Below are positions 1,677-52,749 of a stretch of 64,000 nucleotides of DNA, piece after piece. Position 1 is the stretch's first letter, and every line of letters begins with the position of its first letter. Where the stretch lies: positions 41,317,180-41,381,179 of the forward strand of contig OX485808.1 in assembly GCA_950295325.1 (NCBI GenBank). Reading direction: 5' to 3'. A model generated the notes under the pieces. The model did no database searches. It was not told the DNA's origin and saw only the letters and a program-made list of their open reading frames with translations. Source of the stretch: Polytrichum commune (Eukaryota; Streptophyta; Polytrichopsida; Polytrichales; Polytrichaceae). Position numbers and translations under genes: made by a program.

Positions 1677-2186
1677 TATTACCTTGAACCTTCCCCATGG
1701 AAAAGGAGTGTCCGGGCCCATGGAGTGACGGGTTTAGGTGCCATTAGTGGCGCCACCACATACCGGCCTCCACTACCTCCATATAGGATAGGTAACAGGC
1801 TCCACTCTACATTGGGTCGGCTTGCCAGCTCCACCACATCTAAAAAATAATGTGACAGGCTTATATAAGTATATAGAATACCGTAGTACCTTTACCACTT
1901 CGGCACTAATTAAACTAGTTTTATGAAACCGATTTTTGGGGATTATTGTATTTTTAAAATCTCAAAATTCAATATGGGAAATTTGATTTCCCCTTAAAAC
2001 CCGGAATTGCTGAAACCAAAATGGAAATTATAATATTTTTTTCTATAAATAGACGAAGTGGTAGAGATACTACGATAGTCACCGGCTACATATAATAAAA
2101 ATTTCTGGGTGTGAAGACCCTACTGTGTAGCCATTTTATAAAGTGATGATGCACTGTGGGAGCAACAAGTCATTCACCTACTCAAG

Positions 2187-2431
2187 CTACATTGTTTTGT
2201 CTAATTAGTGTGGGTCACATTAATTTTCAATTACTCACATTATTTTTAGGGTATGATTTGAAGGGGCCCATTGTTAATTTTCAGTGTGAAAAATTAGTGT
2301 GGATTTTTTCATCTACATATGTGGATGAAAATTCAAGGCAAGGCAAGTACTATGAAATTAATGTGGGTTACATTAGATTCCAATTAATAGAATGAATTTT
2401 CCACCCACACTTATTAGACAAACCAATGTAG
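2187..2431. mobile_element. MITE-like element with 29-base inverted termini
   Basis: Bases 2187-2215 and 2403-2431 are inverted repeats with two mismatches in 29. The interior also holds an imperfect direct repeat (2211-2233 and 2364-2386). There is no coding capacity. Size and termini fit a miniature inverted-repeat transposable element; superfamily unknown because no clear target duplication was seen. Confidence 0.55.
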
Positions 2432-29955: not shown

Positions 29956-29980
29956 CTGAATGCAAAATAAACACTATATT

Positions 29981-30032
29981 CATTAAATTGAGACTTTCTC
30001 TAGTCTCAAATTAATATATGGATCAAACAACA
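29981..30032. repeat. short direct repeat shared with 36888-36935
   Basis: The core 'tctcaaattaatatatgga', preceded by 'ttgaga.tttctct', is present here and at 36888-36935 in the same orientation. At the second site it runs directly into sequence shared with the 3' flank of cluster A, which suggests these are pieces of element boundaries. Confidence 0.5.
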
Positions 30033-30500
30033 TTCCGTGTTCCGAAACTATATTGCGAACAATTTCAAATATATTATATGTTCTAATATCCCAAATCTAT
30101 GGGGTGTGGACATAAGCACATATGGTAGAGCACTCAACACCAACTTCATCAACAAAAACACTTTGGGTAGAGCACTCCAAACTAGTTTCACCCAAAAAAC
30201 ATATAAAATGATTTCTATTATTAGCATGGTCAATAAAATATAGACATTGCAACATACAAAGTACATGCAATAAATGCATTTTTCTTCAATGGAAAATTTA
30301 GTCCCAAACTTAATAAAAAAATGAACTTCACAACTGTATTGAAATATAGTAAATGGATATTCATCCAACCCCAAACAATATAGCATTCGCAAGTTCTACC
30401 CAAACTTTGCCCCAAGTTTGAGGAGCACACATATGAGTAATATATATTCGTCGAATTACATATTACACTATAATCATGCTAACACAATCCTACCAACTTC

Positions 30501-33500: not shown

Positions 33501-33567
33501 CAGACGTAGATTGGGTGTTGCCCATGTCGTCAGAGAAGGAATCCCCTCTTCCACCAACTCCCTCCAT
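30501..33567 (-). pseudogene. DUF7869-type transposase-like gene, probable frameshift
   Basis: Two coding exons: 33567-32125 and 31987-30501. The second contains the conserved blocks GMIAHGHGD, VQLDNCAKDNKSRYVF and LVGHTHDDIDASFGRWS typical of DUF7869 proteins, which are abundant in mosses, ferns and some animals and are thought to be transposase-like. An upstream block CCVHRCCQLFP and HDKMDHAK lies in exon 1. Acidic aspartates (KMDH, LDN, HDDID) suggest an RNase H-type core, an inference. After KMDHAK the frame is wrong: the residues that should precede the splice (ATDG..KLHVSVTG) are in another frame, and that frame joins exon 2 in phase. One missing base in the T run at 32197-32199 explains it. 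The 5' leader is split by an intron full of palindromes, with a TATA box beyond it. Confidence 0.7.
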
Positions 33568-33744
33568 TGCGCCTACACACATGGAAAGAATGTAAGGGTC
33601 CAAAAGAATCAAATATCGGAAAATGCAAGACACCATGATCAATGGGGACACCGAGGATGAAGACATTTCCAACACAACTACAATGTGAACTCCCAACACT
33701 GTGTGCAAGTCCAAAACAAGTTCCAGAAATTATTTTGGTGCGGG

Positions 33745-34624
33745 TTTGGGTCGACCGGCCCAAACCTCATAAGGGTCGGACTGAACCCCTAACACACTGG
33801 GGTAGGGGTTTGGGTCGACCGACCCAAACCTCACAAGGATGCATCCACCCACACCAGGTAGGGGTTTGGGTCGGTCGACCCAAACCTCACAAGGGTCAGA
33901 AAAAAAAACCCTAACACACTGGGGAAGGGGTTTGGGTCGACCGACCCAAACCTCACAAGGGTACATCCACCCACACCAGGTAGGGGTTTGGGTCGGTCGA
34001 CCCAAACTTGATAAGGGTCAGGAAAAAACCCTAACACACTCGGGTAGGGGTTTGGGTCGACCGACCCAAACCTCACAAGGGTGCATCCACCCACACCAGG
34101 TAGTGGTTTGGGTCGGTCGACCCAAACCTGACAAGGGTCAGAAAAAAACCCTAACACACTGGAGTAGGGGTTTGGGTCGACCGACCCAAACCTCACAAGG
34201 GTACATCCACCCACACCACGTAGGGGTTTGGGTCGGTCGACCCAAACCTGATAAGGGTCAGGAAAAAACCCTAACACACTGGGGGTAGGGGTTTGGGTCG
34301 ACCGACCCAAACCTCACAAGAGTACATCCACCCACACCATGTAGTGGTTTGGGTCGGTCGACCCAAACCTGATAAGGGTCAGGAAAAAAACCCTAAGACA
34401 CTGGGGTAGGGGTTTGGGTCGACCGACCCAAACCTCACAAGGGTCAGACATAAACCCTAACACACTAGTGGACAGGTTTGGGTCGGTCGATCCAAACCTG
34501 ATAAGGGTCAGACAAAAACCCTAACACACTGGGGTTGGGGTTTGGGTCGACCGACCCAAACATGTTAAGGGTCAGACATAAACCCTAACACACTAGTGGA
34601 CAGGTTTGGGTCGGTCGACCCAAA
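33745..34624. repeat. palindrome array 1 (15 sites) in the DUF7869 leader intron
   Basis: Fifteen copies of TTTGGGTCG-NN-CGACCCAAA, starting at 33745, 33809, 33865, 33931, 33987, 34051, 34107, 34171, 34227, 34292, 34348, 34413, 34477, 34541 and 34605. The central dinucleotide alternates AC and GT, so neighbouring sites are inverted to one another. They sit in a macro-repeat of about 120 bases, with linkers such as 'tccacccacaccaggtag' and 'aaaccctaacacactgg'. Only a few sites carry mismatches. The open frames through the array on both strands (VDRPKP-type repeats) are by-products. Confidence 0.92.
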
Positions 34625-34689
34625 CCTCATAGAGTCAGACTCAAAACCCGCCAACACTAGTGTAAAGGTGAAGGTTCGCCCAAGTACAC

Positions 34690-34945
34690 CACAAAATCCG
34701 GCGTATAATGCGGCGGATATTGCGTGGTGTGTTGAATTTGAGCTCATTGCAAAGTTCACGGTGGGCTTGCATGGTGTGGATAGGTGCTCATGAACTTGCA
34801 TGCTATGGATAAGTGCTCATGAACGGCAGCATGCATGAACCTTGAAGTACAGCTCCTACTAAGAGTTCTCTCTACGAATTCGACAGCGGGAGAAGAGAAA
34901 AAAAGGACCGACTTTTGGGGGGTGCGCCCCTTTATACTATCCACC
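34690..34945 (-). promoter_or_regulatory. putative promoter and 5' leader exon of the DUF7869 gene
   Basis: Read on the minus strand, GTATAAAGGGGCGC around 34939-34926 is a good TATA box. A pyrimidine-rich leader follows from about 34905 to a donor near 34690 (GTGTAC). The next 3' splice site, TGTGTAG near 33573, lies six bases before ATG 33567. This places the palindrome array in the leader intron. The transcription start and exact donor are estimates. Confidence 0.5.
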
Positions 34946-36111
34946 TCCGCTTCCCTGACTTAGTCATTGGATGTCTTCCCCGCCTTCTTCTCTTGCAGAG
35001 GTTATTTCAAACCTCCTGACAGAATTCCCTGTTTTCTGTTTATAGTAGAAAAATGCGCATCTATCAATGCCCCCCTGATACCCCAGCCGTCATATGACTT
35101 AGTCTATGTTATTTAATCTATTTGTTTTGTTTTGTGTGGATATGACATACGCCATTGGGAGGAAGGATGGCGGCCACATTAATTTTTTCAAGTATCATCA
35201 AGGTATATTTTAACCAATATGTAGACCCAAACACAACTCCATTCAATGCTTTCAAGTGTAAACCTATTTAGGTGGGGTTTGGGCCATTTGGAGGCTGCAA
35301 TTATGAGAGAGTTTCCAAGGCTTGAGGCCATTGTCATGATGAATAGAATTATTTATTTGTCCCCCCTAAACCCTAAACCCTAGAACCTTGCTCTATTATC
35401 TCGCATGCAAGAGTGGCAATGACGAACGTATGTGGACGTTGTTAAGGGGATACTAACTACCAATGTCCCTTTCTAGTTCAATCTTTTAATGTTATTTGAA
35501 TCCATCCTCAAGTTCACTTCAAGTTTACTAATGTGTGAGAGCAAAACATCCAAGATTGGACCCTAAACCCTTATAACATCCACAACATGAAATACGCATT
35601 TACTAAATACAAAACCAATTAGGATATCATGTTTAAACGTCCCATATAACATATTAACATGATCAAGATTGTATTTACTATGACCTTCCGATTAGACTCT
35701 TCTTCATATTATGCAAACAATATCTGTTATATCTTCCTCCATTATCTAATACACGTGGAGAGAACAATGAATAACAACATGATGTTGTGCTTCTCCGATT
35801 TACTTTTACATGACATTCCATATATTAAATACATCATGAACGATGGTTTATTAGCGACTAATATGTGATTCCCTAAAGTGAGCGAAACATCCAAAGTTGG
35901 ACCCCTAGCCCCTATTAACATCCACAATATTTCATGTTATTTGAATAAACACACGACCAATCAATATATCGCGTTTAAACGTCTCGAATAACAAATTAAC
36001 ATAATCAACATCGTCTTCACTATAACCTTCCTATAAGACTCTTCTCACGAGTAAGACAATGTTATACATTGACATTGGATAGATTAATATGTTATAACCC
36101 TATCTCCTATC

Positions 36112-36140
36112 TCCTAAACCCTAAACCCTAAACCCTAAAC
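36112..36140. repeat. interstitial telomere-type repeat
   Basis: About four tandem units of CCCTAAA. A shorter run occurs at 35365-35385, and the reverse, GGGTTTAG, at 56757-56778. This unit is the standard plant telomere repeat and supports a plant origin for the window. The array linkers also contain isolated 'aaaccctaa'. Confidence 0.85.
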
Positions 36141-36887
36141 ACCAAATGTAGTTGTGGTTCACTGATGCCCCATATACAAACAACATCTATTTTATCTTGC
36201 GCCATCATCTAATATACATGGAAGGAACAGGGAATAACAACATGATTGCTTGAATGGCTTCATTTGATGTTGTGCTTATCCCATTTACTCTTATATCACA
36301 ATCTATATATTAAATAAATCATGAACCATGATTTATTGGCGACTATGTGATTCGTGAAAGTCACGATCTAAGGGATGTACTTAAAACTTGAGCATGTTCG
36401 CATTTTCAAATAAGGATCGTGCATTTCAAAACCCTTGCAAAATGCAGTTGGGGAAGGTATTCATTTATTAGGCTCCACACTCAATTATTCTAAATTGTTC
36501 CACATGTTGGGGGGTGTGGGTAATCTTTTTTTTTTCATTCAATATCGTGTGAATTGTTGGCATCATTGGTAAGGACTAAATGTGAATGGTTACATCGTTA
36601 AATATAACGCAATTATATGGTTTAAATTTTCTAACATGCTCAAACAAAAGAGAAACCAATGCCTTCAATGATTTTGGAAAATTTAGGGTATGGTGTCATG
36701 TAAGTAGGGGATAAGTATTAGTTTAGCATAAAGTTTTGTTGTAAGAATGCGCTGGCTATATAAATGGTTAGTTTTGTAGAATAACACATTTTATGTAGCA
36801 CCTTAGGGTACTCCATAGTTCTTTTGAAAAAACTAATAAGGGTTTAGAGCAGGGTCCAAAAGAACCTAAACCCTAAAATTCGCTAAT

Positions 36888-37140
36888 TTGAGATTTTCTC
36901 TTCTCTCAAATTAATATATGGACCACAACAACATAGTGTAATGTTTGGGTCGTCCTACCTAAACCATCTTCATATGAGATCTTAATTGCGTTCTTGATAT
37001 GAACACCCGCTTCAAAGTATTTGCATCTTACAACATTCTCCAATGTACGTGCGATTTTATCCATGTTCTTATATTTGTAACTTTCTCAAAATGCCGAAAA
37101 AATCCCAAATTAACGAATATACCGATTAAAACAAATGCAG
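36888..37140. repeat. direct repeat, copy 1 (copy 2 at 46474-46690)
   Basis: Bases 36935-37140 match 46474-46690 in the same orientation with moderate divergence. Shared stretches include 'aacacccgcttcaaagt.tt' and 'gcatcttacaac.ttctccaat'. Each copy begins with a decayed palindrome of the form 'gtttgg.t.g.cctacctaaacc'. The pair brackets cluster A, so it may represent long terminal or subterminal repeats, or two insertions of one repeat. Confidence 0.6.
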
Positions 37141-37859
37141 CCTACAAAATTAGTGACTTAGCCTATAAAATTTTGAAAGTGTAGGACAAAGAGCCTATGG
37201 ACAATTTAAAAACATAGGATATCAACCTATGTGATAAAAACATTTAGGAAATTTTGCCTAAATTTTTTTTAAAAGAAAGGATTTTAGCCATTCATCCTTC
37301 TTCAAATTGGGAAATTAGTTGGCCTAAGTACATATCTTTAGGCTATATCTTGCAGGAAGAGTAGAGGTTGAATGAGAACATGGTGAGAACTTTCACCCTT
37401 AAACTCATTTGAATTTTAGCAACCTTTCATAACTTATAATCAACTCTTTAAAAAAGACTTGGTTAATCCTTGGCCTTCAAACGTGGTGAAAGGCTTAGCC
37501 AGGTTCAATTCCTGCCAAGGATCCCACTTAGTACTCAAATTTTGATTTTAAAACCTTCAACATTAAAAGATATGAAGGATTTTAACCTACTAAAAATTAG
37601 TTTTGAGGCAATTGGCGAGGAACTTACAAACTCAAAAGGTTTTCAACTTACAAAAAGTTGATATTGTAGAATGCAACCTATGCTATGAGGCAAATAGCCT
37701 ATGTACTCTTAAAGAGGTAGGCCCGCTAAGGGTTTAGAGTCAAGCGTTATGATTTAGGTTTTAGGGTTCCCTGTAACCCTGTTTCCGTGGGTGCCCTAAT
37801 CCTGTGGGCACCCTATTCATGCGGTTGGGGGCCAATGCCCGAGGTAAACAAAACCCCAA

Positions 37860-38651
37860 CCGTCGCATTTCTCATTTCTTTCTCTCTCTCTCTCTCCGCG
37901 CCTCGCTTGGAAGTGCCGCGGCGAATCAGGCTTGGTGTAGGTTAACCCTTCATTCTCCCGCGTTCATTGCTTTCTTCTGCATCTTTTTTTCCCTCCTTTC
38001 TTTTGCTCTTCAATAGAATAGCCCTTGTGCAATCTTAGAAGTTAGGAAGAGTTTTGAAAGAAACAGAAACATACGGAGGAAGGTTTTAGAGCGTGAGAGT
38101 GAAGGAAGTTAGCAAAAGAGTGTTGAAGAGTATTGGAAAGTGCTGAAGGAAGTTAGTAGAACATTCGGTAGTAGATAAAGCTTCGGTTTGGGAGGTCCAG
38201 GTGTTTGTACTGGAAGTTTTAGGAGTGCTTGTGAAATTCAAGAGTTCTTTAAGAGTATCAAGAGTTGTTTGAGAGTTTTCGAAGTCGTTTGAGAGATTCA
38301 GTAGTTTTGTGAGGGATTCAGGAGTGGGTTTAGACATTTCGAAGTCTTCTGAGAGGTTTAGTAGTTGTGTGTGAGATTCAGGAGTTGGTTTGGACATTTC
38401 GAAGGCTTTTGAGAGGTTTAGTAGTTGTGTGTGAGATTCAGGAGTTGGTTTAGACATTTCGAAGTCTTTTGAGAGATTCAGTAGTTCTGTGTGAGATTTA
38501 GGAGTTGGTTGAGAGATCCAAGAGCTATTTGAGAGAGTTGATACTTGTTTGAAAGTTTCTCATTGAACTTTCTCACAGTTTGTTTGATATTGAGAATTAT
38601 TGGAAGAACAACCTGCTCTACTCCAAATTGTCTGCACAACATCTTTGAAAG
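37860..38651 (+). promoter_or_regulatory. putative 5' leader exon of the cluster A gene
   Basis: A pyrimidine-rich tract (TTTCTTTCTCTCTCTCTC near 37876) and GC-richer bases resemble a plant transcription start region. The sequence then runs to a donor (GAAAG|GTATTG) at 38651/38652. The next acceptor, CTTACAG, lies directly before ATG 39359. This implies a 5' leader intron of about 700 bases holding palindrome array 2, matching the layout of the DUF7869 and cluster B genes. No TATA box was identified. Confidence 0.4.
38283..38520. repeat. 60-base minisatellite, about four units
   Basis: Period 60 from the recurrence of 'ttcaggagttggttt.gacatttcgaag' with 'gagaggtttagtagttgtgtgtgag'. Because the period is a multiple of three, the minus strand reads as a repeated 20-residue peptide (KPTPESHTQLLNLS). 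It lies in the presumed leader exon of the cluster A gene, so that peptide is probably not made. Confidence 0.8.
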
Positions 38652-38770
38652 GTATTGTGTTTTATTTTAACCAATATGTGTTTGTATATTCACGGTTTTG
38701 TAGCATACACAATGCATAAGCATTGTATATGCTAGATGCCAAGTTTAAAAAATATATTAAAATAATACTG

Positions 38771-39071
38771 TTTGGGGAGACGACCCAAACACAGCCTCTT
38801 GTATGGGTCGACCGACCCAAACACAGCCTCTTGTTTGGGTCGACCGACCCAAACATATCCTCTTGTTTGGGTCGACCGACCCAAACACAGCCTCTTGTTT
38901 GGGTCGACCGACCCAAACACAGCCTCTTGTTTGGGTCGACCGACCCAAACACAGCCCCAAACACAGCCCCTTGTTTGGGTCGCTCGACCCAAACACAAAA
39001 CAAAGCATCATGTTTGGGCCGAACGACCAAAATATAACACAAAGCATCATGTTTGGGTCGAACGACCCAAA
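38771..39071. repeat. palindrome array 2 in the cluster A leader intron
   Basis: Nine sites of the TTTGGGTCG-NN-CGACCCAAA family, starting at 38771 (degenerate), 38802, 38834, 38866, 38898, 38930, 38974, 39012 (degenerate) and 39052. The middle ones recur every 32 bases with identical linkers ('acagcctcttg'). All complete sites have the AC centre or CT/AA variants, so here they share one orientation, unlike array 1. One more relaxed copy is at 39312-39331. Confidence 0.92.
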
Positions 39072-39358
39072 CTAAGTCTTCTAATTATAAACTCATAAAG
39101 AAATCCATGATTTTTGCATCAATATAAAATTCACATCAACCCAAAATAATAATCAAGGAATGCATCAAGGAAAAGTATCAAGGAATCCTGCATGTCACAA
39201 ACAATATAAAATGCAAATCCACCCAATAATCACAACATTCTTATTATCATTACAAATGATGCTGAAATATATAAATACACAATCCACCTAAACCTATTCA
39301 TGTCGTAGATGTTTGGGTCGAACGACCGAAACTAACTTTGCGCATTATTTTCTTACAG

Positions 39359-42300
39359 ATGGCTCCAAAGAAAAGACCCGGCGAAAGGTGGTTCATGCCT
39401 GCGCCGGACATGTTGTGGCAGGAGCACGAAACCCCGCAGGATGACTCCTATTCCCCTAAGGACGGGCTTGTCCTCGCTTGGTCTATTCAAGTAGTCAAAG
39501 CCTCAACATACAAAATGATTTTTGTTGTCAAGGTGGGAACCGTGGAGAAACACACCTGGGCGACTCTTACGGGATGGGAGGTCGCATCGGTACAGTCTCT
39601 TGGAGACTATACCGACGTCATCCTCGAGAACTCGGCTGTGCAGAACGCGCATATGTTCATGCACCAGTTCTCCGAGCCTTTCGACGCACTCTATGCAAGA
39701 GAGTCCTGTGTCGAATCGGAAGTTATCAAGCCGGAGACAATATTTATCGATGGGAGTACATCGAATACCAAGGTCTCAAGCCGGTTCACAAAACTAAAAC
39801 ATGCAATAACCGTGCTGAACAGGGGCCTGCAAAGCAAAACCAAATCACAGCAACCTGTGAGGCGGAAAGCTCCCACAGAGGAAGGAGCAGGGTCGTCAAG
39901 ACCTCAATCGGTGAGGATGCCGCTACCAGTACCGGCTGACTCGCGTAGGACCACTCCCTCCCAAACACCTACGAATAGTGAGACCCCTACACCTTCTGGG
40001 AGCCGTCAAACAACTCCATCCAAGAGGGCGAGAGAGTCATCTGTGATGACTGACGAGCCAGTCTCACCGGAGTTGCGCATGCCGAAGCCCGGCGAAGAGG
40101 TGGATGTAGGGGAGCTGCAGAAAATCGTGAACAATTTCACGACGAAATGCTCCCACTGTTTTTTCATGGGCAGGGATTTCAAGTTCGACGTGAACATCAG
40201 CCAGTGCCATCTAGCGCCACCGGAGAAGTGTGTCCGGGCAAAGGAGGACGCCTACGTTGACTGGATAATCGCGCAGATCGTTTGCGAGCAGTTTAAAGAC
40301 GACAGGCAAACGATTGTAGTGATGCCACAGGGTCTCAAGAAAATGCCTACACCTGAAATGTGGCCAACAATTCAGAAGGGCGATTTTTGGCTGATAGACG
40401 GCCAACACAGCGTGGAGGCATCCAAGAAAATCCAACTCATGAATGAGTGGGACGATCCCAACAATCAGAAGGAAAAGCTGAAGGTTTGGAAGGCACTGGT
40501 GGTGTGGTCTGACGACGAGACCAAGCTCAGCGACATCTCCCGGTACTTCAATATGGGAAACAAGAAGAGGGCCTACCAAGCTTCCTGGATAAGGAATATC
40601 ATGGCCTCGCGGGAGGTGTGGGAGTTCTATGGTAGGCCTCCCAAGGAGAGGGAGAATGCGAAGGACAAGAATCCCAAGTGGGAGGTGAGTATTGTTTGGG
40701 TCGACCGACCCAAACTCCTGGTGCAGTCTTGTGTTTTTTTAAAGTTTGGGTCGATCGACCCAAACAACTGTTGCAGTCTTGTGTTTTTTTTCAGTTTGGG
40801 TCGACCGACCCAAACTCTTGTTGTAGATGTTGGTCATGATATGGTTTGGAAATCACATGTACTTAACTAACACGCATTCAAATGTTCTGTTTTGTTCACG
40901 TGCAGAATTTCAAATACCAAATGATCAACAAATTCTCCTCCATTGATAATTCGAGCCACAAGCAGAAGAAATACAGCGACCTGAAGGGGGAGATTTACTT
41001 TATTACAGCATCGGACTCAGTTTGGAGGAAGTGCAAAACCGTGTTTGAAAAGCACGAGACGGGGGATTTGATCGACCCTGACACTGGCGCTTTCTTCAAC
41101 CTGGCCTCGCGCTTCAAGCAGATGAAGCCTCTCGTGAGAGAGTTCTTTAGAACTCTTCAAGGGCTGTCAGAGACGAAGGTGGAGAAGGCGGCATCGCACA
41201 TCCTGCACGTGGCACCCACGGCCAAGAGGTGCTGGGTGCACCCGAAGATTGTCTTCGTAAAGCCCAAATCCTTCGTTCCTTCATGCTACACCATGAAGGA
41301 ATGGACGGAGAACAGAAAAAAGAAGACGACTATCGTGCAGGAGCTGCATAAATTGGTGCCAGAGAGGAATATTGTCGTGGACGGCGAGGTTCATGGGGCT
41401 AACTGGAGAGCATTCAAAGATGAATATAAGTTCACCAGTGCCTCCATGGCGGCTCTAATAAGGGAAGCGGGGGACGACTTCTTGCGGGCCAAGATGGTGA
41501 AGGGTGGGAAGAACCGGGCGCTTCCGGATCACACAGCGCGTGCGTTCTCGAACTTCATCAAGGAGAAGAAGATTGTCCAGTTTGAAGGGGACGCTTACTT
41601 CAACCTTGTCACCTTCGAGCCTTTGAAAATTCAGGGCTGGCCATGTCAAGACGCCAGAATGGCGATAAGGACGAAAGCAAGGGACCGCTTTCCTTTTGGG
41701 ATGATTGATTTTAGAAATATTCCTGGAAGCTCATTTGAGGGCACGATGAGCACCCTCTTCTACGACCCCTTCTTAACTAAGTTCGTCGATTATGCAAGCC
41801 CTAAGTTCAGGGAGGTAGATATCTGGCTTTGGATAGTCGAGGATAGAAGGGCGGAGCAGGTGTACGAGCTTGTCCGGAAACTGCAGCCGGAGTATGCAGT
41901 GTCCAAGTCTCACTACATCGCCGCACCGGCGGAGGGGGCTTACACGACGTTGAAGGACAAGAAGACCAAGTTCGTCAACGTCTTGTGTTCGTACTTCGTG
42001 TACAAAGCGGAGTTGCTGAAGGTGCCAAACCACCCTATATCCCGGATGGACAAACTCTTCCAAGTTCCAGAAGGGTTGGGTGCGAACAAGTGCCTCTACG
42101 ACGAGGCTAAATACGCGAACTATCCTGCAGATGAGCTGCGGATGGAATTTTACATGAGAATGATGAGGACGCTGACGAGGAGAGGGGACTGCATCTTCAA
42201 CGTCTTCGGAGGCTCAAAACCTGTCTATGCTGCTATGGTAAGTGACTTTCTATAGCTCGTAAGCAGTTTGTGTCGATCGACCCAAACTAGGCTCTTTGCA

Positions 42301-45190
42301 GGTTTGGGTCGACCGACCCAAACTACACATTGTACTTAGTCTTGTTTATGTGATTGCCTCGACAAATTCTAATTTCCCTATAACTTGGATTGTGTAGATG
42401 TCGGGGCTGAATATATACTCCTACATAGAGGATGGCGATCTGCCATTTTACAGGGTGCAGAAATCGCTGGCGAAGAAGATGGACATCCTCGATTGGATCC
42501 CGGGTAGCTACGTCGACGAGGTTGTTCAGGGTGGCGAAAATCCTCTTGATAGGGTGAGGCGCATCAACCCGGAGGAAATGGCCATGAAGGCCACGACCCA
42601 AGTTCCCGAACCTCTGGTCGGGTTGCATCTGGGCAATCCGTCCCGCACAGAAGGTGGCGAGGTTGAGGAGGAGGAGGAGGAAGAAGAGGAACACGAGGAG
42701 GCGGAGAAGGAAGGCGACGTCGAGGAAGGGGCAACGGGCTTCACGCAACAATCCGAAGCCCCTCAACGGAAGAAGGCGATGCGGGCGGCAACCCCGCAGA
42801 GTAAGCTCGTGCCCGTCTTGACTGTGGACGATGCACGGGACATGTACTCCAGGGACGCCACCGCGACGTTCAGGGAGAGGAGGAAGTTAAAGGGGAAGAA
42901 GCTGTATGGCGACTACTCCGTGGAGAAGACCATTGCCATTAGTAGCGAGGACGACGATGACATTGAGCTCGCCAAACGGCTAAGATCAGATCCCCCGTCC
43001 CCGACAGCGTTCGCTGGCATGGTTAGGGTGAAGCCCGAGGTCCTGACTGTGGAGGAGGCGAACGAGAAGATGAGGAGGGACGAGGAGCAGCGAGTCCGCC
43101 TGCAGAAGGCTGCCGCGGAAGAACCCTCAATGCGGAACGAGGTCGCAGAGCTGAGGGCTCTCCTGTTGGAGCAGGAGCGTCAAAGGGCGATGGCCCAACC
43201 TCCGTCCCACGCCGACTTGATATCACAAGTGATACAAGGAATGTGGGCGCAAGGTTTGGTGGTGGCTCCCTCCAGCTCCTTCCCGCACTTGCCCCCCGGC
43301 TTCCCTCCGCAGAGCATCCCTCAGCAGCCTGTGCCGCAATCGTCTTTCAGCTTCCAGCACTTGATGCGGCCCCACCAAGTTCCGTACGCGCCGGTCCAGC
43401 AAGTGGATGACCCCAACATCTGGCGCGTCTCTGGAGCCTCCTCCCCTTTGGGCCCTCCACCACTTCGGCCCCCCATAGTCATGGCGCCACCCCACCAATC
43501 GGACGACCCCAGGATGTTTGGGTCGACCGACCCAAACCCACCATCCACTGTAGTGTCCGAAGGGCCCTCTCCAGATGCAGGACAGTTTGGGTCGGGCGAC
43601 CCAAACCCCGTTGCAGCGCAGTCCTCCCTTGACCAACATGGGTGTCAACTAGACACGGCCATGCTAGATGTTGAAGGCCTGCAAGGGCCTGGTGATACCT
43701 CTACTCCTAACCAAATCGATGAACCCATGCATGATGCACATGCGGAGATTGGTTTAGGACAAGGGCCTGATGCCGATCGTTTGCAGGAGAAGGTTCCTGA
43801 CGTCGTCGGAGAAGGCGGTGGCGAGAGAGGCGGGGCAGCGGGGACGGTGGAGGCTTCCATATCGTCGAGACATGACCAGGGCGAGGTAATACACTGAGCC
43901 CTCCCAGTTTGGGTCGACCGACCCAAACTTCCTGGGTCACTGTCTTGTTGGCGTGGTCGTGTCCCCCTTGCTAGGAGGAAATGCACACCCCCTGCCCCCC
44001 CTGGTCTACACTTGCTCCCCCTCCCCCCAACGTGCCCCCCCGCGATCCCCTTCGTCTCACCTGCATTCGACTACGCTCGACCTTGGCGGCACGCAACCAA
44101 TTTTGTAGATGTAGAATTAGGATAGTGTGAATGCCGTCGTTCACCGCGCCCCCCCCCCCCCCCCGAATCAAATTGTACATAGAGATTTGTAAAAATAAAA
44201 TTATTATTTTTGGCGCCCATATGTTTGCATCCGTGTCCCAATGTATGTTGTTCCCTTGTATGTTTTTGTTGCCACCAATGGTCCAATTCTTCTTGTGTTT
44301 GCACAAAATTTCCGTTCTGCTTGAGATGGACATAGCATAACATAGTCCTTGCCGCCTTCTCTCGCTCGTCGCCGCAGGGTTCGGAGCATAGCGTCACGGC
44401 TCCCCACCGATCCTCTCCGAGGAGTGTGGAGGACAGCGCGGTGGTCCCCCCGATTTTACCCTCGCCACCTTTGCCTCCCAAAACCCGGTTCCTGGTGCTA
44501 GACCTCAACGGGGTCCTTGTCCAATGCGTGCATTGTCCGAGGGTCCCAACGGTGCCTTTCTGCAAGCCCGAGGACGCCAACTACGATGGACCCCCCGCGT
44601 ACATCAAAAGCAAGCTAGTGTACCTCCGCCCGTGGCTTCGGCGCTTCCTACAGGTCGCCCTATCCAAATGGTGGGTGATCATTTGGAGCTCCATGAAGTC
44701 CGAGAATACCCAGGCCGTCGTGGAGTTCATCTTCAAGGGACTCCAACCCCCGTGCTTGGTCCTAGGACAGGATTCTTGTAAAACATTGTACACCCCCGAG
44801 GGCAGGGTTGTGAAGAAGCCCAACAACCCCGCCGTAAACCAATTTCTTAAGGTCTTGAAGCCAATCGTATGGGACCAGCGTCCGACCATGGTCGGCTGTC
44901 CCTACGACGTTCGCCCCACCCGTGACAACACGTTGATGGTGGACGACAACGCTTCCAAAAACATTTTGAACCCGACCTCCAACTTCATCGTTTGCCCCAC
45001 GTGGACGGTCGAGAAGGTCCGAGACCGCTTTTTGTTAGACCTACTTAAGTACATTCAAATGCTCGTGGGGAGTGGACTACCCGTGCCCCGGTTCCTTAGT
45101 TGTAATCCGATAGGCGAAAGATACATGGATCCGAAGGACTATATGTACAGAGAGTTGTACGCTCACGCGAAATATAATAAACTCATTTGA
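39359..45190 (+). CDS. ParB-like / methyltransferase-like / FCP1-like fusion protein of mobile element A (4 exons)
   Basis: Exons 39359-40684, 40906-42237, 42398-43885 and 44378-45190 have GT-AG borders, are all in phase 0, and give 1652 residues without a stop. Start: the acceptor TTACAG abuts ATG 39359. Order: an unrecognised N-terminal domain (about 1-150); a Ser/Thr/Pro linker; a ParB/DGQHR-like domain with WLIDGQHSVEAS (D347-S351); a second exon ending LTRRGDCIFNVFGGSKPVYAA (G869 onward), which resembles motif I of beta-class DNA methyltransferases, with YDPF (728-731) where DPPY would sit; an acidic, then coiled-coil, then Pro-rich linker (887-1382); and an FCP1-like HAD domain with LDLNG (D1424, N1426), IIWSSMKS, LVLGQDSC and MVDDN (D1571, D1572). 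ParB-methylase fusions are known in phages. The methyltransferase reading is inferred, as key residues are altered. Every intron holds palindromes. Confidence 0.75.
40695..40814. repeat. three palindromes in intron 1 of the cluster A gene
   Basis: Sites at 40695-40714 (AC centre), 40745-40764 (AT centre, a perfect palindrome) and 40795-40814 (AC centre), spaced 50 bases apart with related linkers ('ttgcagtcttgtgttttttt'). The first begins ten bases after the donor. Confidence 0.93.
42267..42322. repeat. two palindromes in intron 2 of the cluster A gene
   Basis: Sites at 42267-42286 (one mismatch, AT centre) and 42303-42322 (AC centre, exact). They occupy the first half of a 160-base intron. 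Confidence 0.93.
43517..43605. repeat. two palindromes inside coding exon 3 of the cluster A gene
   Basis: An exact site at 43517-43536 and a GG-centred site at 43586-43605. Both are in the same reading frame and encode FGSTDPN and FGSGDPN in the disordered linker. These are the only copies within coding sequence. Confidence 0.92.
43908..43927. repeat. palindrome in intron 3 of the cluster A gene
   Basis: One exact AC-centred copy of the family, 22 bases after the donor at 43886. The rest of the 492-base intron includes C-rich tracts, among them about 15 consecutive C near 44150. Confidence 0.93.
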
Positions 45191-45309
45191 GATACTACAT
45201 GGTGTGCCATTGTGTGTGATATAGTATGCCTCAATTGTATATCGATTTTCTCATGCTCCCCCCCTGCCCCCCTCCCCTTGGGTTTTGTTTGTTTTAATTT
45301 TGCCATCAG

Positions 45310-46118
45310 CGTTTGGAGCCCTCGATTGAGATCGTCAGCGAATCAAACTTGGGGAGCTTCTTCTACGAGACCGTCTACGATGCCGCGTCCACCATCGACT
45401 ACTCCAAGGAGCCTCTTGACGCCGGCGTCGTCGATAGTCCCCCACCCAAGCAAATCTTCCGGCGATCTCCGTCCCCGTCGCCGCTCAAGGGCATAAATCG
45501 CAAATGCGTCCGGACGTCCCCCTCTCGGCCCGGCGGCAGTAGTACACCTCAACGGCGGCTGCGGATGGACGCTCGGCCTACGAAGAGTGGCACCCTTCCT
45601 ATTCCTTTGCGGGACGCATTGCCCCTCCTCGCCGCCTCCGACGGGAACGCCCCCGGTGACAAGGTGAACCCCCCCCCCCCCCCCCCAAAACATGGTTAAC
45701 CGCGCATTACAATCATCCGACACTTAAAAAATGAACGTGTGACACGTTTGGGTCTTCCTCCCTAAACTAACACGTGTGTTCTTGCATTCACGCGTTGCAG
45801 GTTGCTCCCACCCGTAGACCTATGCGGGCTAGTGCGTCCGTCGAGTTGGAGCGTTTCTACTCCATGACCAGAAATGCAAGACAGTCCCCTTCATCGTATT
45901 CGAATTCTTCGTCGTATAATTCGGGCGGCCGACGGAATCCAAAATGTGTTATTGATGGCGGTCACCCCAAGAATGGCTATAGTCGCGGGGCGGAGATTTT
46001 CAGGAATGTTGAAGCAATGCGAGCAAAAGAAGCCGCAGCAAAAGAAAAAGAGGCAAAAGAAAAAAAAGCAAAAGAAAATGAAGCAAAAGAAAAAGAGGTA
46101 GTCTCCGAGGCTAGATAG
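45310..46118 (+). CDS. hypothetical basic-tailed protein of cluster A (2 exons)
   Basis: Exons 45310-45663 and 45801-46118 join in phase 0 (GDK|VAPTRRP). The product is rich in Ser, Pro and Arg, has a short ordered start (IEIVSESNLGSFFYETVYDA), and ends in a Lys/Glu/Ala helix repeated as KEKEAKEK before a stop. No family recognised. It begins only 120 bases after the stop of the large gene, at an acceptor (CCATCAG), so it may be a downstream exon of that transcript used after alternative splicing; no phase 0 donor before the upstream stop was found. A run of about 20 C lies just inside its intron. Confidence 0.45.
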
Positions 46119-46260
46119 GCCATAGTAGGCGTAGGGTTTTGGGCCATAGGCAAGAACATTTTGGGTCGCACTATCCAATGGATGTGTTGTGTTAGCATGC
46201 TATGCATTTTACATGCCACACTTTGTATGTTTTTTTTTTGCAATAATATAAGTGTCACAT

Positions 46261-46506
46261 GATTTCCCCTTCCATATGGTCTAAGGTTTGGATTGCCCTA
46301 CCTAAACCATCACAAATATGAGTTTGGAATATTTTGTATGTTATATTATATTGGTTCACATATTTCCCCTTCAATATGATCTATGGTTTGGATTGCCCTA
46401 CCTAAACCATATTCATACAAGTTTTTGTGCGATAATATGAATGTTTTAAGATTTCCCCTTCAACTTGGCCTAAGGTTTGGATTGCCCACCCTAAACAATC
46501 CCAAAT
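46261..46506. repeat. three direct repeats with decayed palindromes, 3' flank of cluster A
   Basis: Copies at 46261-46313, 46361-46416 and 46449-46506 share 'atttccccttc' followed by 'ggtttggattgccctacctaaacc'. The latter is an imperfect inverted repeat that resembles a degraded member of the TTTGGGTCG family; similar sites occur at 36938 and 45748. Confidence 0.7.
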
Positions 46507-46690
46507 ATTGAGTTATTAACGGGGTTCTTGTTCTAAACACCCGCTTCAAAGTGTTCGCATCTTACAACTTTCTCCAATATGTGTTCCATTTATCCTTGTT
46601 CTTATTTATGTGAATGTCTCAAAATGCCCAAAAAGTCTCAATTTAACGAATATAGTGTTAATAGATACTACATGTCCAAGCCAAAAGATT
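46474..46690. repeat. direct repeat, copy 2 (copy 1 at 36935-37140)
   Basis: Same orientation as the copy upstream of cluster A, and starting with the third decayed palindrome. It lies between the last cluster A exon and the truncated end of cluster B. Confidence 0.6.
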
Positions 46691-48180
46691 ATACTTTATT
46701 TATAATAAATTGTGGCACATATGGCCTCATCTTCCCACAAGGGATGAATTCTACACTATCCTATCTAAATGTATTGAAGAAATAGGCGTCCTAGTCGACA
46801 AGAGGCTTCAAGATGCCGCGCCGTCTCCGACCTGGATCAAACATCCAGGTGGAGATTCAGTCACTTGAACAGGGTCAAAATAAAGTAATTAAAATGAGAC
46901 GGGGTTTGAATACTTATATTGGCCTCTTCGTCATCGGGGGTGTCCTTGGTTGCACGTTCAGCTTCCATATGCGTGGCTCCATCCACGCGATCCACCTCCA
47001 TTCCTTGGACGCCAACCTCCACTTGTGTGATATCCCTCTCGATCTCGGCAGCTCCGACGGCGACTTCCACTGTAGGGGCTGGTTGCGGCACCGGCTGAGG
47101 GGTCTGTTGCCGAGCAAAGCTCATTGCTTCTTGGAGCAAGCCCGATAGCATGGTGGGCAGTGTTCTGTTCATGATGCCCACGATTTTCTCCTCCACCCAC
47201 GTCTCTGTAATCGCGGGCTCTTGAGACCGTGTACTATGTCTCTTCGACTGCTGGTCTTTGTGCTTCCCTCGCTTGGAAGCCTTGGGTTTCGGTGGACTAG
47301 GGGGTGGGATATCTTCGCCGCTCTCATGGCGATGTAGTGGCGACGATGGTCCTGAGGTGGTTGGAAGATCGGGTGCGGGTGTGCCCACAACGTATTCGGT
47401 TGTGTTTTCTTCGACAGGGGCCTCGCGGTCGGCCTCTTCCCCTTCAGTAGGGTCTTCCGCTACGGCCTCATCAGGGTCCTCCTCGTGGACCTCCTCAATT
47501 TCCTCCTCCACGCCCTCGTGTTCGTCCCCGCCATCATCATCCTCATCGTGGGTGTCCGCCTGTTCAACCTCCTGATGTGGTTCCTCTAGCGGGTCATCCG
47601 CCAGCGAGGTGACATGATGAGGATCCTCAGCAAAGTCGAGCACCCTGGCCTGCAAAGGGGAAGGTGAATGACGAAAATCGTGCGGTCGCCTTTGTGACTG
47701 AATGGAATCGCTATCCGATTGCGATTCCAACTGCTGCTCCTCCCCTCTGCTAGCAGCCTCATATGTATCCTGCTCGCTAGGCGCCTCTTTGTCGTCGTCG
47801 TCGTCCTGTTCAGGCTCTTCGTAGTCGTCGCCCTCTGAGTCGTGTCTATCAATGTCCATGGCATCGATATCCACACCGGTGGAAGGATCTCGGGGGGCAT
47901 CCTCCAACAACAGTGTTGGGGTTGCATGTTGTTGACGATGAGGTTGCGAAGCTCTGCCGTGCGCAGCGTCATCCTCCTCTTCATCTTGGAAGTCTACTGC
48001 TCGAAGGGGACGAATGTGTTCAATCTTACCAGGCAGCGTGTGCAGAAAACAAGAGTCCATATACGAAAACACATGTTGGTCGTTCATCTGCCCACATGAA
48101 CAATATAAATGTTATGTAACTTGACCCATTTAAAACAAGAACTTCAACCTTTAAACTTCAACCCTCTAAAACTTAAAGTC

Positions 48181-48278
48181 CTCCCCACTTAAAATCCTCC
48201 CTGCAGTGTACAAGGGAGGTTCCTCTCGGCCGAGAGGAACCTCCCTTGTATACTGCAGGGAGGATTTTAAGTGGGGAG
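48181..48278. repeat. 98-base near-perfect palindrome in cluster B intron 2
   Basis: Centred between 48229 and 48230 on CTCGG|CCGAG. Each arm of about 49 bases matches the other except at one position (gtgtac against gtatac). It lies within the intron 48322-48088. Confidence 0.93.
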
Positions 48279-49836
48279 GGAGGCAGTGAGGGACTAGGTG
48301 TAGGGTGTTGCAGAGAACATACCAATGCGGCAACAATTGGCTTCAAACCGCCGAATAAGTTAATCACGACTCCTCCTGTGCTTCCAAGGAAGCTGAAAAA
48401 CGACAGGTAAACCTTCATTCGCAACTCCCCCCGGGTCACTTTGTATGAAAATTCGGACCACTCCTTGGGGTTCACATTGTAACGCCGAGCTTCAGGCGGC
48501 ATCATTGGACATCGGAAGATTTTGTGGCCCGGGAGGATGCTCGGGCAAGTAAGGAAGTCCACGTAAATCATCGGTGACTCCCTCTTGCAGTCCACTTCCT
48601 TGTAGAATGGATAATTCTCGGCGTGACAAGGTAAATACACCGACGGGATATTCAGGAACGTCTGCGGATGCTTACGAATTATGGCTGAGATGAATTCCTC
48701 AGCTGCGTTGTGGTTTCGCAAGTCGGAGACAATCATCCAAGCTGGGATGGTCTTGAGTCCAGGAGACCATATTGGATCCGTAAAATACTTCACCAAGGAC
48801 TCCACGACCGAAGAGGACACTGGTTGATCGACACAACCTGGAATGAATCTAAAGTCCATAACCCCCCTGTTATGGTGAACTTCGACATCCAATCAAGATC
48901 ACGCTTATCTTGCACATGGATCAGCAACTTCCTTTTGAGAGCGTTGTACTCGACATATCGTGTAATCACCTGTCCGTCACTCTCTTCAAGGTCCGTATGA
49001 TGCCACTCATTCAACAAACGCAGACATGCTGGGGGCGGATCCAAGAACTTGTTATTGGGCATCCGCTTCTTGTTCAGCCAACTATCAGTAGCAACCTGGT
49101 AAAGCTTCATCCACTTGGCCTTCGAGATACAGTGGTCCTTCTTGAATTTAAACCAAACGGATCGGTTGAGACAGTCAGCACCCTCCGCGTCCTTTCCCCA
49201 AATGCCAAGATCTTTTGGGTCACGTGCTGACAATTCTTGCAGCAGTATGTTTTTCCACTTCCTAAAGATACATCACGACTTCAAGAGTGACACATTAGAG
49301 TTCTTGGTTGACCTGAAAGTCACTCTAGGAACCTCTTCGTTTGGCCTCACTTCGAGTATTCGTTTTGCACACAAAAGATAGTCAGGCTTAGTCAAACCGG
49401 CCAAGACCCTAAAAGTTTCTCGAGTCGATGGTTTGCAGACATAAGGCTTCTCCTCGAATGTGGTTGCCGATTTCTTCTTCTCATGATGCGCTCGTTGTCT
49501 CTGTTGCGCTTCGAGGTATTCATCCAAATAGGTTGATCCTGGCTTGTCGGGATTCATGAGGGTCCCCTTCTCATGCGCAACGAAAATCTTCTTCCACAAC
49601 CTGGCAGTCTCATCGTCGGCTATGATGATTGCGAGCTCAGCATTAAGGTCCGTGTGGGTGATACCTCTCGCAATGGCAGTGAACGAAGCCTCCATGCTTG
49701 TTGTGAAATTCTGTAATGTGGAAGTGTTAGAATACAAACATAAGGGAAATAGACAGGAGAGATGGAGTGGGAAAGAAATCAACCATGGCATCATGGTAAC
49801 TAGCTATTTAGGTAGTCATGTCTTTTTAGGAATGTA

Positions 49837-50050
49837 TCCCTCCCATGAAGTGCTTAAGGGAGGTTCCTTTCGGCCGAGAGGAACCTCCCTAGAGCACTTC
49901 ATGGGAGGGATCCCTTGAGAAATACATGGGAGGTTCCTCGCGGCCGCGAGGAACCTCCCATGATCACTGCAAGGGAGGCTTCCTTGAGAAATATATGGGA
50001 GGTTCCTCTCGGCCGAGAGGAACCTCCCTTGAGAACTACATGGGAGTGAG
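49837..50050. repeat. three B-family palindromes in cluster B intron 1
   Basis: Cores at about 49859-49892 (TCGGCCGA type, with arms extending to 49837-49910), 49928-49960 (GCGGCCGC type) and 49998-50031 (TCGGCCGA type). All share GGGAGGTTCCTC arms and linkers such as 'cccttgagaaatacatggg'. They fill most of the intron between 50112 and 49711. Confidence 0.92.
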
Positions 50051-51654
50051 TGAGTTTGAAAGGAGGGAGTGAGGAAGTGCATTGTATGAATATGCATACT
50101 TATTTTCCATGCCTCCATCATTTTGGGGTCGAGCGTTGCCTCAGCTTTGTTAACCCTTTACTTTTGGGGCCTGCCTAGTTTCACCCACACTCTACGACAA
50201 TACATAATCTGGGTTGTCCAAGTAGGGGTGAACTTGTTAAATGAATTGGAGTTATTTAGGGTATAAGATAGGCGGACTGTCATGCTTGGATCCTCGCTCC
50301 AGACAATTGTACAAGGCCACGTCTTCAATTTATCTTTCAATGTTTGTTCTGTATCTTTGTGCCCTATAATTTCTCTTGATGCAGTCACGCTGTGTTGACC
50401 GTTGATAATGAGAAAATTTCCATTCTTGATGTCGTCCCAAGTCATCCATTTTCTCCATCTTTCACCCTTATTGAGCTTCGGCATTAGGCAAAGATTGTGA
50501 TGAGGCCATGCCGGTGGAGTCTGTATAAGGTAGTTCTTCATGAGTGCTACCCCGGCTTCATCCAGTGGGCGAGTAACCTGGTAAGATTTAGCTTGCATCA
50601 TTTTCTTTATGTGGACATGGAAAACTTTCTCCACACCGAAAGGGTAAAGGTGTCCAAATAATTGGACAAATTTTTTCCGGTCCGCTGCAGCTTCCTCCAA
50701 ACTTGGTTCCTCTCCATGCGCGATAACTCTCCCCTTCTCTGCTGTAGTGAGCACTAGGGGAGTTTCATCTGTGTCATCCGTCGCCTTCATCTTCTTAGCC
50801 TTAGTCTTCCTGGGTTCATCAGTTGTCCTCTTCGTGGCCGGGGGTTTCCTTGGGCCCGTTGTCTCCTCGGGATTGTTGTCAAGAATTGGCGTTGGGTTGA
50901 AGGTCCTGGCCAACGGACCAATGTCACCTGAAACATTCTTAGACCTCTTAGAAGTCTCTCGTGTTCCTCCAGCTTCCTCTCCGGGTCTCTGTTTCTTTTG
51001 TGTCTTCTTATTTCCTCCATCATCATTCCTAGAAGCGACAAGAGTCTCCGCTTGTTTCTTCTTTTGCTTCTTTAGCGCCTCCTTCTCGGACGCCTCTCTT
51101 GCATTGATATCACCTATTGCTTCAAGTATAAAATTTATGGCCTTCTTGGAAATGCCAGAACCCATCACTCTCTCCATATCTTCTTTGTCCGCAGTAGGGA
51201 GCGTCGAGATTGATTGCGTAAACGGCTCCATATGGAATCTGTGTCTCTTGCAATCGATGGACAAAATTCGTGTTTCAAGTCCTTCGACGACCGACACGTT
51301 TAGTTTGTCGCTATCACCTATAGCAGCCGAGGTAATTGCATTTCCCGGGTTTGGAATCCAGCTTTTGTCCACCCGGTACGCAAATGTTAATTTTAAAGGC
51401 GATTCATTGTCTTTTCTATGTACTTGCAGCGACCAATGTCGTAAGTGGGTGTCCCTTAATTCCCAGTGGACACCCTTCGGCCCCACTTGGATATCCCCAA
51501 CAAGATCGGTCCATAAAACTTCTCTCTCCATGTCACCTGCACGAATCATTGAAATGGTTAGTGTGTGTGGACTGCATGAAAGAGTGAAGTCTCAAGAGTG
51601 TGGTGTGAAAGAGAACCTCAAGGGTGGTGTGATAGTGTTTCTACATTGCGAAGG

Positions 51655-52090: not shown

Positions 52091-52306
52091 AGATGTGGTT
52101 AATTCTAAAATTAAATGACATCAAAAATTTAGAAATTGGAAACCTACATCACTAAAAATTAAAAACACAAACATTCGGCCGCAAGGCTTGACCTAAAGAA
52201 CTTAGGCACAGTCAAGTTGAAGACCCTTGAGAGCCAGGGCTCAGTGATGAGCGTGGGAGGAGGTTCCTCTCGCCCGCGAGGAACCTCCTCCCCCCCTCAT
52301 CACTGA

Positions 52307-52590
52307 GCCCTGGCTCACAAGGCGTCACTCATGAGGGGGGAGGTTCCTCGCGGGCGAGAGGAACTTCCTCCCCCCTCATGAGTGAGGCCTGGCTCACAAG
52401 GACTCACAAGGGCTCACTCATGAGGGGGGAGGAGGTTCCTTGCGGGCGAGAGGAACCTCCTCCCCCCTCATGAGTGAGCCCTTGTGAGTCCTTGTGAGCC
52501 AGGCCTCACTCATGAGGGGGGAGGAAGTTCCTCTCGCCCGCGAGGAACCTCCTCCCCCTTCATGAGTGACGCCTTTTGAGTCCTTGTGAG
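52307..52590. repeat. giant nested palindrome, about 280 bases
   Basis: Centred on GCGGGC near 52446. The inner palindrome reaches 'ggctcac...gtgagcc' (about 52390-52500). Outside it, the left site at 52333-52370 and the right site at 52518-52556 are themselves palindromes and are reverse complements of each other, and the match continues to 'tcacaaggcgtcactcatga' on the left. An isolated related site at 52255-52292 and another at 52617-52650 flank it. Confidence 0.92.
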
Positions 52591-52749
52591 CCCTTGTGAG
52601 TGAGCCCTCGCCTGGGAAGAGGTTCCTCTCGACCGAGAGGAACCTCCTCCCCCAAAGTTGTTTGTGTACGGATGGGAATTCCGTACAATTCGGACCACTC
52701 ATTACATTCATCGATTGATTTGATGTGATTCTATGTTTATGTTAATGTT

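Follow-up and report, generated by a model that had tools for sequence, protein, structure and literature searches.

An intact accessory gene with ParB-like, methyltransferase-like and FCP1-like parts, and repeated palindromes, on a 16.7-kb DNA transposon of Polytrichum commune

A 64,000-nucleotide stretch of the Polytrichum commune genome (assembly GCA_950295325.1, contig OX485808.1, positions 41,317,180 to 41,381,179 of the forward strand; hereafter the window) was analysed. The window contained a complete 16,690-bp DNA transposon at 29970-46659, here called family A. It is a young, high-copy element of 16.7 kb, and a four-exon gene in it is its accessory (second) gene. From its sequence, this gene was best explained as a whole by an accessory DNA-binding protein that addresses its own element, perhaps as an anti-silencing factor. 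We regarded this explanation as about an even call. The protein would consist of a ParB-like domain, a degenerate N4/N6 DNA-methyltransferase-like scaffold for reading DNA, a disordered linker and a C-terminal FCP1/NIF-like domain. It would most likely bind, as a dimer, the 22-bp palindrome of the element, which was observed as repeats between the two genes, ahead of exon 1 and in introns. Binding would keep the promoters of the element expressible, either by anti-silencing like that of VANC of the VANDAL transposons or as a self-specific transcription regulator, and the FCP1-like part would contact the transcription machinery.

The borders of the element were determined from its copies. Similarity between copies ended at 46659-46664 in 10/10 right-end stretches and at 29968-29970 in all four left-end stretches that reached the element end. 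Ten more stretches, all beyond the left border, showed no match there. The two ends formed 28-bp terminal inverted repeats (TIRs) with one mismatch, flanked by an exact 4-bp target-site duplication (TSD) (Table 1). An exact 4-bp TSD was also found in all ten TIR pairs fetched for the TSD test. These came from the first eleven pairs on contig C1 that face inward at a spacing of 14-18.1 kb, of which the one at 27537294 is not included. In the case of four other copies read at both ends, two carried a 4-bp TSD (ATGA, TTAA) and two carried none. The genome searched comprised 408 Mb, of which seven contigs made up about 406 Mb, and all match counts from the genome searches are lower bounds (scored candidates only). 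The TIR gave 803 matches with at most one mismatch, and its reversed control gave 0. On contig C1, 21/35 adjacent inward TIR pairs were spaced 14-19 kb. A TIR (class II) DNA transposon is recognised by TIRs together with a TSD, and family A showed both. The initial annotation had proposed a nuclear mobile element with an intact gene at 37860-46690. Such an element and an intact gene were supported, but 37860 was no boundary, and the element includes a second gene on the other strand. The Sola1 superfamily has a 4-bp TSD. Family A was not assigned to Sola1, as this TSD was the sole compatible feature and is not diagnostic because other superfamilies fit too. A 185-bp direct repeat of 79% identity (36939-37121 and 46471-46654) was also observed, which is right-end sequence of the element with a diverged internal copy.

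The accessory gene has four exons on the + strand (39359-45187), all in phase 0, with GT..AG introns and no internal stop, and encodes 1652 residues, in agreement with the exon structure first proposed. The motifs IDGQHS (DGQHS at residues 347-351), FNVFGG (within FNVFGGSK, residues 873-880), LDLNG and VDDN were all present, as had been reported. Every exon showed an excess of substitutions at codon position 3. Compared with a subfamily of 89-90% identity (L045/L012), these were 131/171 in exon 1, 88/127 in exon 2, 111/172 in exon 3 and 27/39 in exon 4, and the introns were flat in the same comparison, with no codon-position excess. The window against L045-L047 and L051 was counted as one comparison because these are near-identical copies of one subfamily. 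Exon 3 gave 56/93 and 45/77 against two other copies. Copies about 98-99% identical showed no clear excess (e.g. L048: 1/10, 7/21, 5/11), which fits their young age. The codon counts showed that the exons are under purifying selection between subfamilies and are not a chance frame. The FCP1 exon has no Met ahead of its catalytic motif and would need the upstream exons, and the exon junctions, read by eye, were the same in relatives. For these two reasons, a single spliced gene of exons 1-4 was the natural model. Two open reading frames (ORFs) after the FCP1 stop, 45311-45664 and 45802-46117, may be further or alternative 3' exons. In families C and D, ORFs that resemble the first of them (DAAS..DYS...GVVDSPPP) by eye also follow the FCP1 exon; between A copies it showed no codon-3 excess. 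What is presumably the 5' leader of this gene contained a 60-bp tandem repeat (38218-38536), and the minus strand is open there for 157 codons.

The other gene of the element is divergent from the accessory gene, on the opposite strand, and contains an ORF with a DUF7869 domain. This ORF had at least 85 genomic matches, 96-100% identical. Among the matches listed, at least 41/87 exon-3 matches were preceded at 9-25 kb by a DUF7869 match on the other strand, compared to a mean of 0.17 and a maximum of 3 in 200 random placements. From this context and from DDE-like motifs, the DUF7869 protein is presumably the transposase of the element. The DUF7869 ORF showed a codon-3 excess (21/33) in comparison with a single copy from the 89% subfamily, and the ORF before it a smaller one (37/83). 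Three close copies gave no codon-3 excess in either ORF. The DUF7869 ORF had no match in the solved-structure search, no mention of DUF7869 was found in open-licence PubMed Central papers, and a viral-contig search with the ORF confirmed 0/1 pattern match. In the element called B60, a similar first transposase ORF was seen by eye on the other side, adjoining the B60 palindromes.

Relatives of the accessory gene, down to about 25% identity, kept the domain order ParB, methyltransferase-like, linker, FCP1 in families A, B and C/E. Families C and E were about 38% identical to A and 85% identical to each other, with the same domain order. In the case of family D, the methyltransferase-like, linker and FCP1 exons matched, and the stretch fetched did not include the ParB exon. 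Six rows were aligned (A, two of B, two of C/E, and D), five of which have the ParB part.

The homology of exon 4 to FCP1/NIF is certain. The exon of the window matched PF03031 at E=1.8e-13 with 50.9 bits, compared to a gathering score of 21.8, and NIF was matched in 6/6 rows at E<=0.01. The best solved-structure matches were the SCP1 carboxy-terminal domain (CTD) small phosphatases (E=1.9e-4). The sequence DxDx(T/V) is the catalytic motif of active phosphatases, and its second Asp is the general acid/base. It read DLNG in all six rows, so that the second catalytic Asp was replaced by Asn, with the first Asp and the DD motif kept. The loss of the general acid/base made ordinary phosphatase chemistry doubtful. 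An ordinary phosphatase was rejected on this motif, and the domain probably works without normal phosphatase chemistry. This gave no support to the phosphatase acting on transcription that was first suggested.

The ParB-like and methyltransferase-like identities were weakly supported. Profile references were built from phage ParB-methyltransferases, with 7 sequences at first, and were enlarged to 21 (ParB) and 20 (methyltransferase) after a weaker first result. With the enlarged references, hhalign gave weak matches in both cases. The best alignment of the ParB part fell precisely on IDGQHS (P=0.0028, with a score of 25.9 against a shuffle maximum of 17.6, 0/100 shuffles), and that of the methyltransferase part precisely on motif I (P=0.0017, with a score of 29.9 against a shuffle maximum of 25.1, 0/100 shuffles). 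The signatures themselves were altered. The DGxHR signature was replaced by DGQHS in A and C/E and by NGQH(S/T) in B, with Arg replaced in 5/5 rows with the ParB part. In place of the catalytic DPPY and FxGxG, 6/6 rows had DFRxxPG, at about the DPPY place by spacing, and FGGxK (CGGxK in one row). The methyltransferase domain was read as degenerate because neither motif was kept, and an active methyltransferase was rejected on these motifs. Of the three domains first named, the order and the FCP1/NIF homology were thus upheld, and the ParB-like and methyltransferase-like parts gained weak support with no Pfam family.

A further family, F, has the two parts in a separate gene. Its gene at C1:479511-482718 (region C1:475300-482718) has a DGNHR ParB-like exon, which was a weak profile match (P=0.03, with 2/40 shuffles equally good), and a clearer N6_N4 methyltransferase. 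The latter gave E=5.4e-5 and 23.7 bits, below the cut-off of 26.7, with the exons joined by eye; one exon alone gave E=0.021. With hhalign, this methyltransferase gave P=1.1e-5. Among the matches listed, no family-A TIR was near the family F gene. A viral-contig search with the alignment of the accessory-gene family confirmed 0/25 pattern matches, and tblastn of the ParB-methyltransferase part of the accessory gene against phages returned six records with a best E=4, which was taken as noise.

The family A element held 34 sites within three mismatches of TTTGGGTCG-NN-CGACCCAAA, 32 of them noncoding and two in exon 3. In these sites, which were selected by their arms, the next base outside each arm (G/C) was also conserved, giving a 22-bp palindrome GTTTGGGTCG-NN-CGACCCAAAC, and the spacer and the other flanks varied. 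Palindromes with 8-bp arms numbered 54 in the element (overlapping registers counted) compared to 0.5 in shuffles. Sites changed less than their surroundings by at least 2.7-fold in 8/8 array and intron-1 comparisons, which share ancestry. Substitutions in sites versus outside were 1/260 v 21/666, 0/221 v 23/579 and 6/259 v 41/655 in the array. In intron 1 they were 3/60 v 30/152, 4/60 v 30/151, 3/60 v 28/151, 1/60 v 9/158 and 4/60 v 27/151.

The other families had palindromes of their own. The arms were TTCCTCTCG (B1), TTCCACTCG (B68), TTTCACTCG (B60), TTACGAACG (C, C2, E) and TTACGGACG (D). Together with that of A, these six arms fit a 9-2-9 frame, TTnnnnnCG-NN-CGnnnnnAA; the variable bases differed, and the palindromes of families A-D were mostly noncoding. 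The three B arms are one or two bases apart from each other and therefore cross-match at two mismatches. Counted on one strand, the genome contained 9,731 (A), 236 (B60), 3,737 (C) and 1,349 (D) sites, with 0 for each reversed control. The D site was first conjectured from a single locus with imperfect copies and was then recovered genome-wide, with exact arms in 99/100 listed rows. Locations were checked for the first 100 listed sites of each pattern. The 50 distinct B60 sites among the matches listed were all within 10.5 kb of a B60 gene match. Of 100 A-type sites listed, two full A elements accounted for 63 and a one-ended copy for 18; the other 19 were elsewhere. On C1, 3/6 family-D clusters were beside a listed family-D FCP1 match (27.96, 30.51 and 31.28 Mb; by eye). 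When 11 loci were tested with five arms, six held one arm only, four held B-type arms only, and one held none; the last was a family D locus, whose own arm was not among the five. A census of 42 sequences (339,580 bases, partly overlapping) gave 220 perfect 9-bp-arm palindromes with a gap of 2, compared to 1 with a gap of 1 and 12 with a gap of 3. Gaps of 0, 4, 6 and 8 gave 74, 206, 81 and 58, which were largely the same sites in shifted register. Three recurring arms did not fit the frame: GTGTCTCGG had 6 copies, all at a single locus, while GCGCTGTCC had 4 copies across 4 loci and GACTTCCAT had 3 across 3. Families C and E, with 85% protein identity, shared the same arm, and B68 and B60, with 70%, differed at one position. 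The address differed where the protein differed. This was shown as a correlation over few families, and it is a correlation only, because the rows share ancestry.

Table 1. Features of the family A element and of the family-B gene around it (positions in the window)
Feature	Position	Strand	Evidence or remark
Complete DNA transposon, family A	29970..46659	.	shared copy borders and TIRs
Left TIR, AACACTATATTC(A/G)TTAAATTGAGACTTT	29970..29997	+	one mismatch to right TIR
Right TIR	46632..46659	-	inverted counterpart of left TIR
TSD AATA, left copy	29966..29969	.	exact pair with right copy
TSD AATA, right copy	46660..46663	.	exact pair with left copy
DUF7869 ORF, presumed transposase	30501..32015	-	Pfam PF25273 E=3.1e-42; motifs QLDNCAKDN and VGHTHDDID
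ORF upstream of DUF7869 ORF, same presumed transposase gene	32020..33729	-	no Pfam match; similar ORF by eye in B60 element
Tandem array of 15 A-type palindromes, adjoining 5' end of DUF7869 gene	33742..34669	.	13 exact in arms
Palindrome cluster upstream of exon 1	38769..39331	.	8 array copies within 3 mismatches and one at 39312
Exon 1: N-terminal region and ParB-like domain	39359..40684	+	442 aa; DGQHS at 40397-40411; codon-position test, profile alignment
Three palindromes in intron 1	40695..40814	.	more conserved than rest of intron in 5/5 copies compared
Exon 2: methyltransferase-like region	40906..42237	+	444 aa; DFRNIPG from residue 710; FGGSK 876-880
Two palindromes in intron 2	42267..42322	.	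one with 1 mismatch
Exon 3: by eye like methyltransferase motif II over the first ~25 aa, followed by an acidic, proline-rich part	42398..43885	+	496 aa; two palindromes inside coding sequence
Two palindromes inside exon 3 coding sequence	43517, 43586
Palindrome in intron 3	43908..43927	.
Exon 4: FCP1/NIF-like domain, DLNG replacing DxDx(T/V)	44378..45190	+	270 aa; includes stop 45188-45190; Pfam PF03031 E=1.8e-13
Family-B gene, 5' part	46861..51591	-	sequence matches; ParB-like exon 50158-51591 (INGQHS), methyltransferase-like pieces 48173-49803 (INLFGG), exon-3 equivalent 46861-48111
Family-B gene, 3' part	27978..29973	-	ORF 29332-29973 and FCP1-like exon 27978-28826; Pfam NIF E=3.5e-9

Several observations weighed against a DNA-binding accessory protein that addresses its own element. 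No ParB or methyltransferase Pfam family was found at E<=10 in any of the six rows (three others were at chance level, best E=0.036), and a PDB profile search with the ParB/methyltransferase alignment gave one unrelated chance match (E=0.21). With the seven-sequence reference, hhalign gave P=0.13 for the ParB part and P=0.018 for the methyltransferase part. The profile-profile check asked for at the outset thus yielded weak in-register matches on IDGQHS and motif I with the larger references, but only these values with the smaller one. The wrong pairing of the ParB part with the methyltransferase reference scored 23.1 with 0/100 shuffles, which makes the shuffles a lenient null. The methyltransferase part of family A did not match that of family F (P=0.35), and AlphaFold gave no usable fold, with a predicted local distance difference test score (pLDDT) of 34.5 for exon 2 alone and 34.1 for the ParB part with two rows. 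In the case of the sites, nine of the 19 listed A-type sites outside recognised A copies were upstream of the family F gene, and the A-type address is therefore not exclusive to family A. In diverged copies of the 5' array, CpG loss in sites versus elsewhere was about equal (6/12 v 2/5 three times, 8/11 v 3/6 and 0/7 v 0/7). Substitutions there were hardly fewer in sites (L045: 36/120 v 187/455); alignment of this array is unreliable because its copy number changes. The other eight family pairs, at 24-39% protein identity, had three or four of nine differences in the arms, with no trend. Finally, the reader of the palindromes could be the DUF7869 protein or a host factor.

If it is the DUF7869 transposase or a host factor that binds the palindromes, the accessory protein would do other work, such as aiding transposition or replication. 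Many transposases bind repeated motifs, and the DUF7869 gene has the 15-site array right at its 5' end. However, the palindromes were not subterminal. The nearest were 3.8 kb and 2.7 kb from the element ends, barring a 3-mismatch site at 46160, and subterminal transposase sites were rejected on these positions. In addition, palindromes occurred in all three introns of the accessory gene, and the address differed between families with differing accessory proteins. We considered this explanation unlikely. The palindromes might also be non-functional tandem-repeat expansions, with a conserved protein unrelated to them. Many were in tandem arrays, which expand by slippage, and the CpGs of the sites in the 5' array showed no extra conservation. 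However, single intron copies kept their arms and not their flanks, different families had different arms in the same TTn5CG-NN-CGn5AA frame, and genomic counts were 236 to 9,731 compared to 0 for the reversed patterns. This made mere expansion quite unlikely.

Two further explanations depend on enzyme activity. The methyltransferase domain might be active and mark self copies by modifying an adenine or a cytosine within the palindromes of its own element. Self-methylation has been proposed for an Ectocarpus protein, according to the available excerpts of PMC12477816, and the palindromic CG-NN-CG cores would suit symmetric modification. Since DPPY was present in 0/6 rows, with the invariant DFRxxPG about there by spacing, and motif I read FGGxK or, in one row, CGGxK, this was judged slightly less probable than repeat expansion. 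Alternatively, the FCP1-like exon might be a working phosphatase that the ParB-like domain brings to the element, where it would act on the RNA polymerase II tail. The NIF homology, the SCP1 matches, the first Asp and the DD motif speak for it. With Asn in place of the second catalytic Asp in 6/6 rows, it was very unlikely, the least probable of the four.

The self-addressing DNA-binding protein remained the preferred explanation, and it was compared with known systems. A ParB-methyltransferase pair on a giant DNA transposon is already known. The excerpts of PMC12477816 describe Sola1-1_Ec32, a giant Ectocarpus transposon with a ParB-methyltransferase gene opposite the transposase, for which self-binding was proposed, and they cite similar proteins on green and red algal transposons. 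Like Sola1-1_Ec32, family A is a giant DNA transposon whose accessory gene stands opposite its presumed transposase, and this gene encodes putative ParB-like and N4/N6 methyltransferase-like domains. It differs in its degenerate methyltransferase motifs, the C-terminal FCP1-like fusion, the green-plant host and the identified candidate target palindromes. The word fcp1 had 0 occurrences in PMC12477816, and no published case of the FCP1-like fusion was found in open-licence PubMed Central listings and abstract openings. The claim that the whole combination had not been described therefore held, within these sources, for the FCP1-like fusion, but not for the ParB-methyltransferase pair. No published case of family-specific palindromes was found in the same listings and abstract openings, in which no search was aimed at palindromes.

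In phages, ParB-N6_N4_Mtase proteins (e.g. the WOVitA1 'putative DNA methylase') have a ParB-like part followed by a beta-class methyltransferase with motif I near the C-terminus. This is the order proposed here, and the matches to them were weak and in register. However, seven aligned phage and viral proteins keep DPPY and FxGSG, and one that was scanned had no FCP1 domain. The FCP1/SCP CTD phosphatases (PF03031) share the HAD/NIF domain, the first Asp and the DD motif. They differ in having DxDx(T/V) where DLNG stands here, and the domain here is fused to DNA-binding-like domains on a transposon.

VANDALs are Mutator-like elements (MULEs). In the available excerpts of PMC5735166, VANC binds family-specific repeated noncoding motifs, in tandem repeats that diverge between related families; these motifs have 8-9 bases and are not called palindromes there. 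Both systems have a transposon-encoded accessory protein and family-specific repeated motifs in noncoding DNA, with the A-type site here shared with family F. In contrast, 22-bp palindromes and another protein were found here. The likeness is one of working and not of kinship. We tentatively proposed, a little short of an even call, a self-addressing system unrelated to VANC. In this system, a ParB-like/pseudo-methyltransferase reader fused to an FCP1-like pseudo-phosphatase would be paired with a 9-2-9 palindrome with a fixed TTn5CG-NN-CGn5AA frame, five variable bases that co-evolve with the reader, and thousands of genomic copies. It is an open question how transposons evade silencing by the host and still keep the harm they do low, and VANC is one sequence-specific system described in the excerpts of PMC5735166. 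Family A and its relatives would offer a second, independent candidate. The gene is intact and present in many copies, and several diverged families each come with a candidate target site, so that specificity is testable by swaps. If true, this would mean that a bacterial or phage-type ParB-methyltransferase pair was turned into a DNA reader in plants, with a code of five variable bases in a constant frame.

The family A element is inserted into a related family-B gene and splits the 5' part of that gene from its FCP1 exon. The FCP1-like ORF at 27978-28826 was rejected as part of family A, as it is outside the left end and belongs to the split gene. Pairing in family B was examined with 45 long ParB rows chosen from 91 and 58 FCP1 rows chosen from 139, and 42/45 long ParB matches were followed at 4-11 kb, on the same strand, by an FCP1 match. 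The pair in the window was among the three misses, 22 kb apart because of the family A element inserted between. Palindromes of the family-B type and repeats were observed at 52236-52592 and 63225-63638 and continued toward the right end of the window, which suggested that the transposase side of the B element itself is beyond 64000. At 11384-18173 on the - strand, the window also contained pieces of a host gene for an SPL-type transcription factor, with ankyrin repeats and an SBP domain (E=6e-18) that marks the host as a green plant, and this SBP-domain gene was about 12 kb left of the element.

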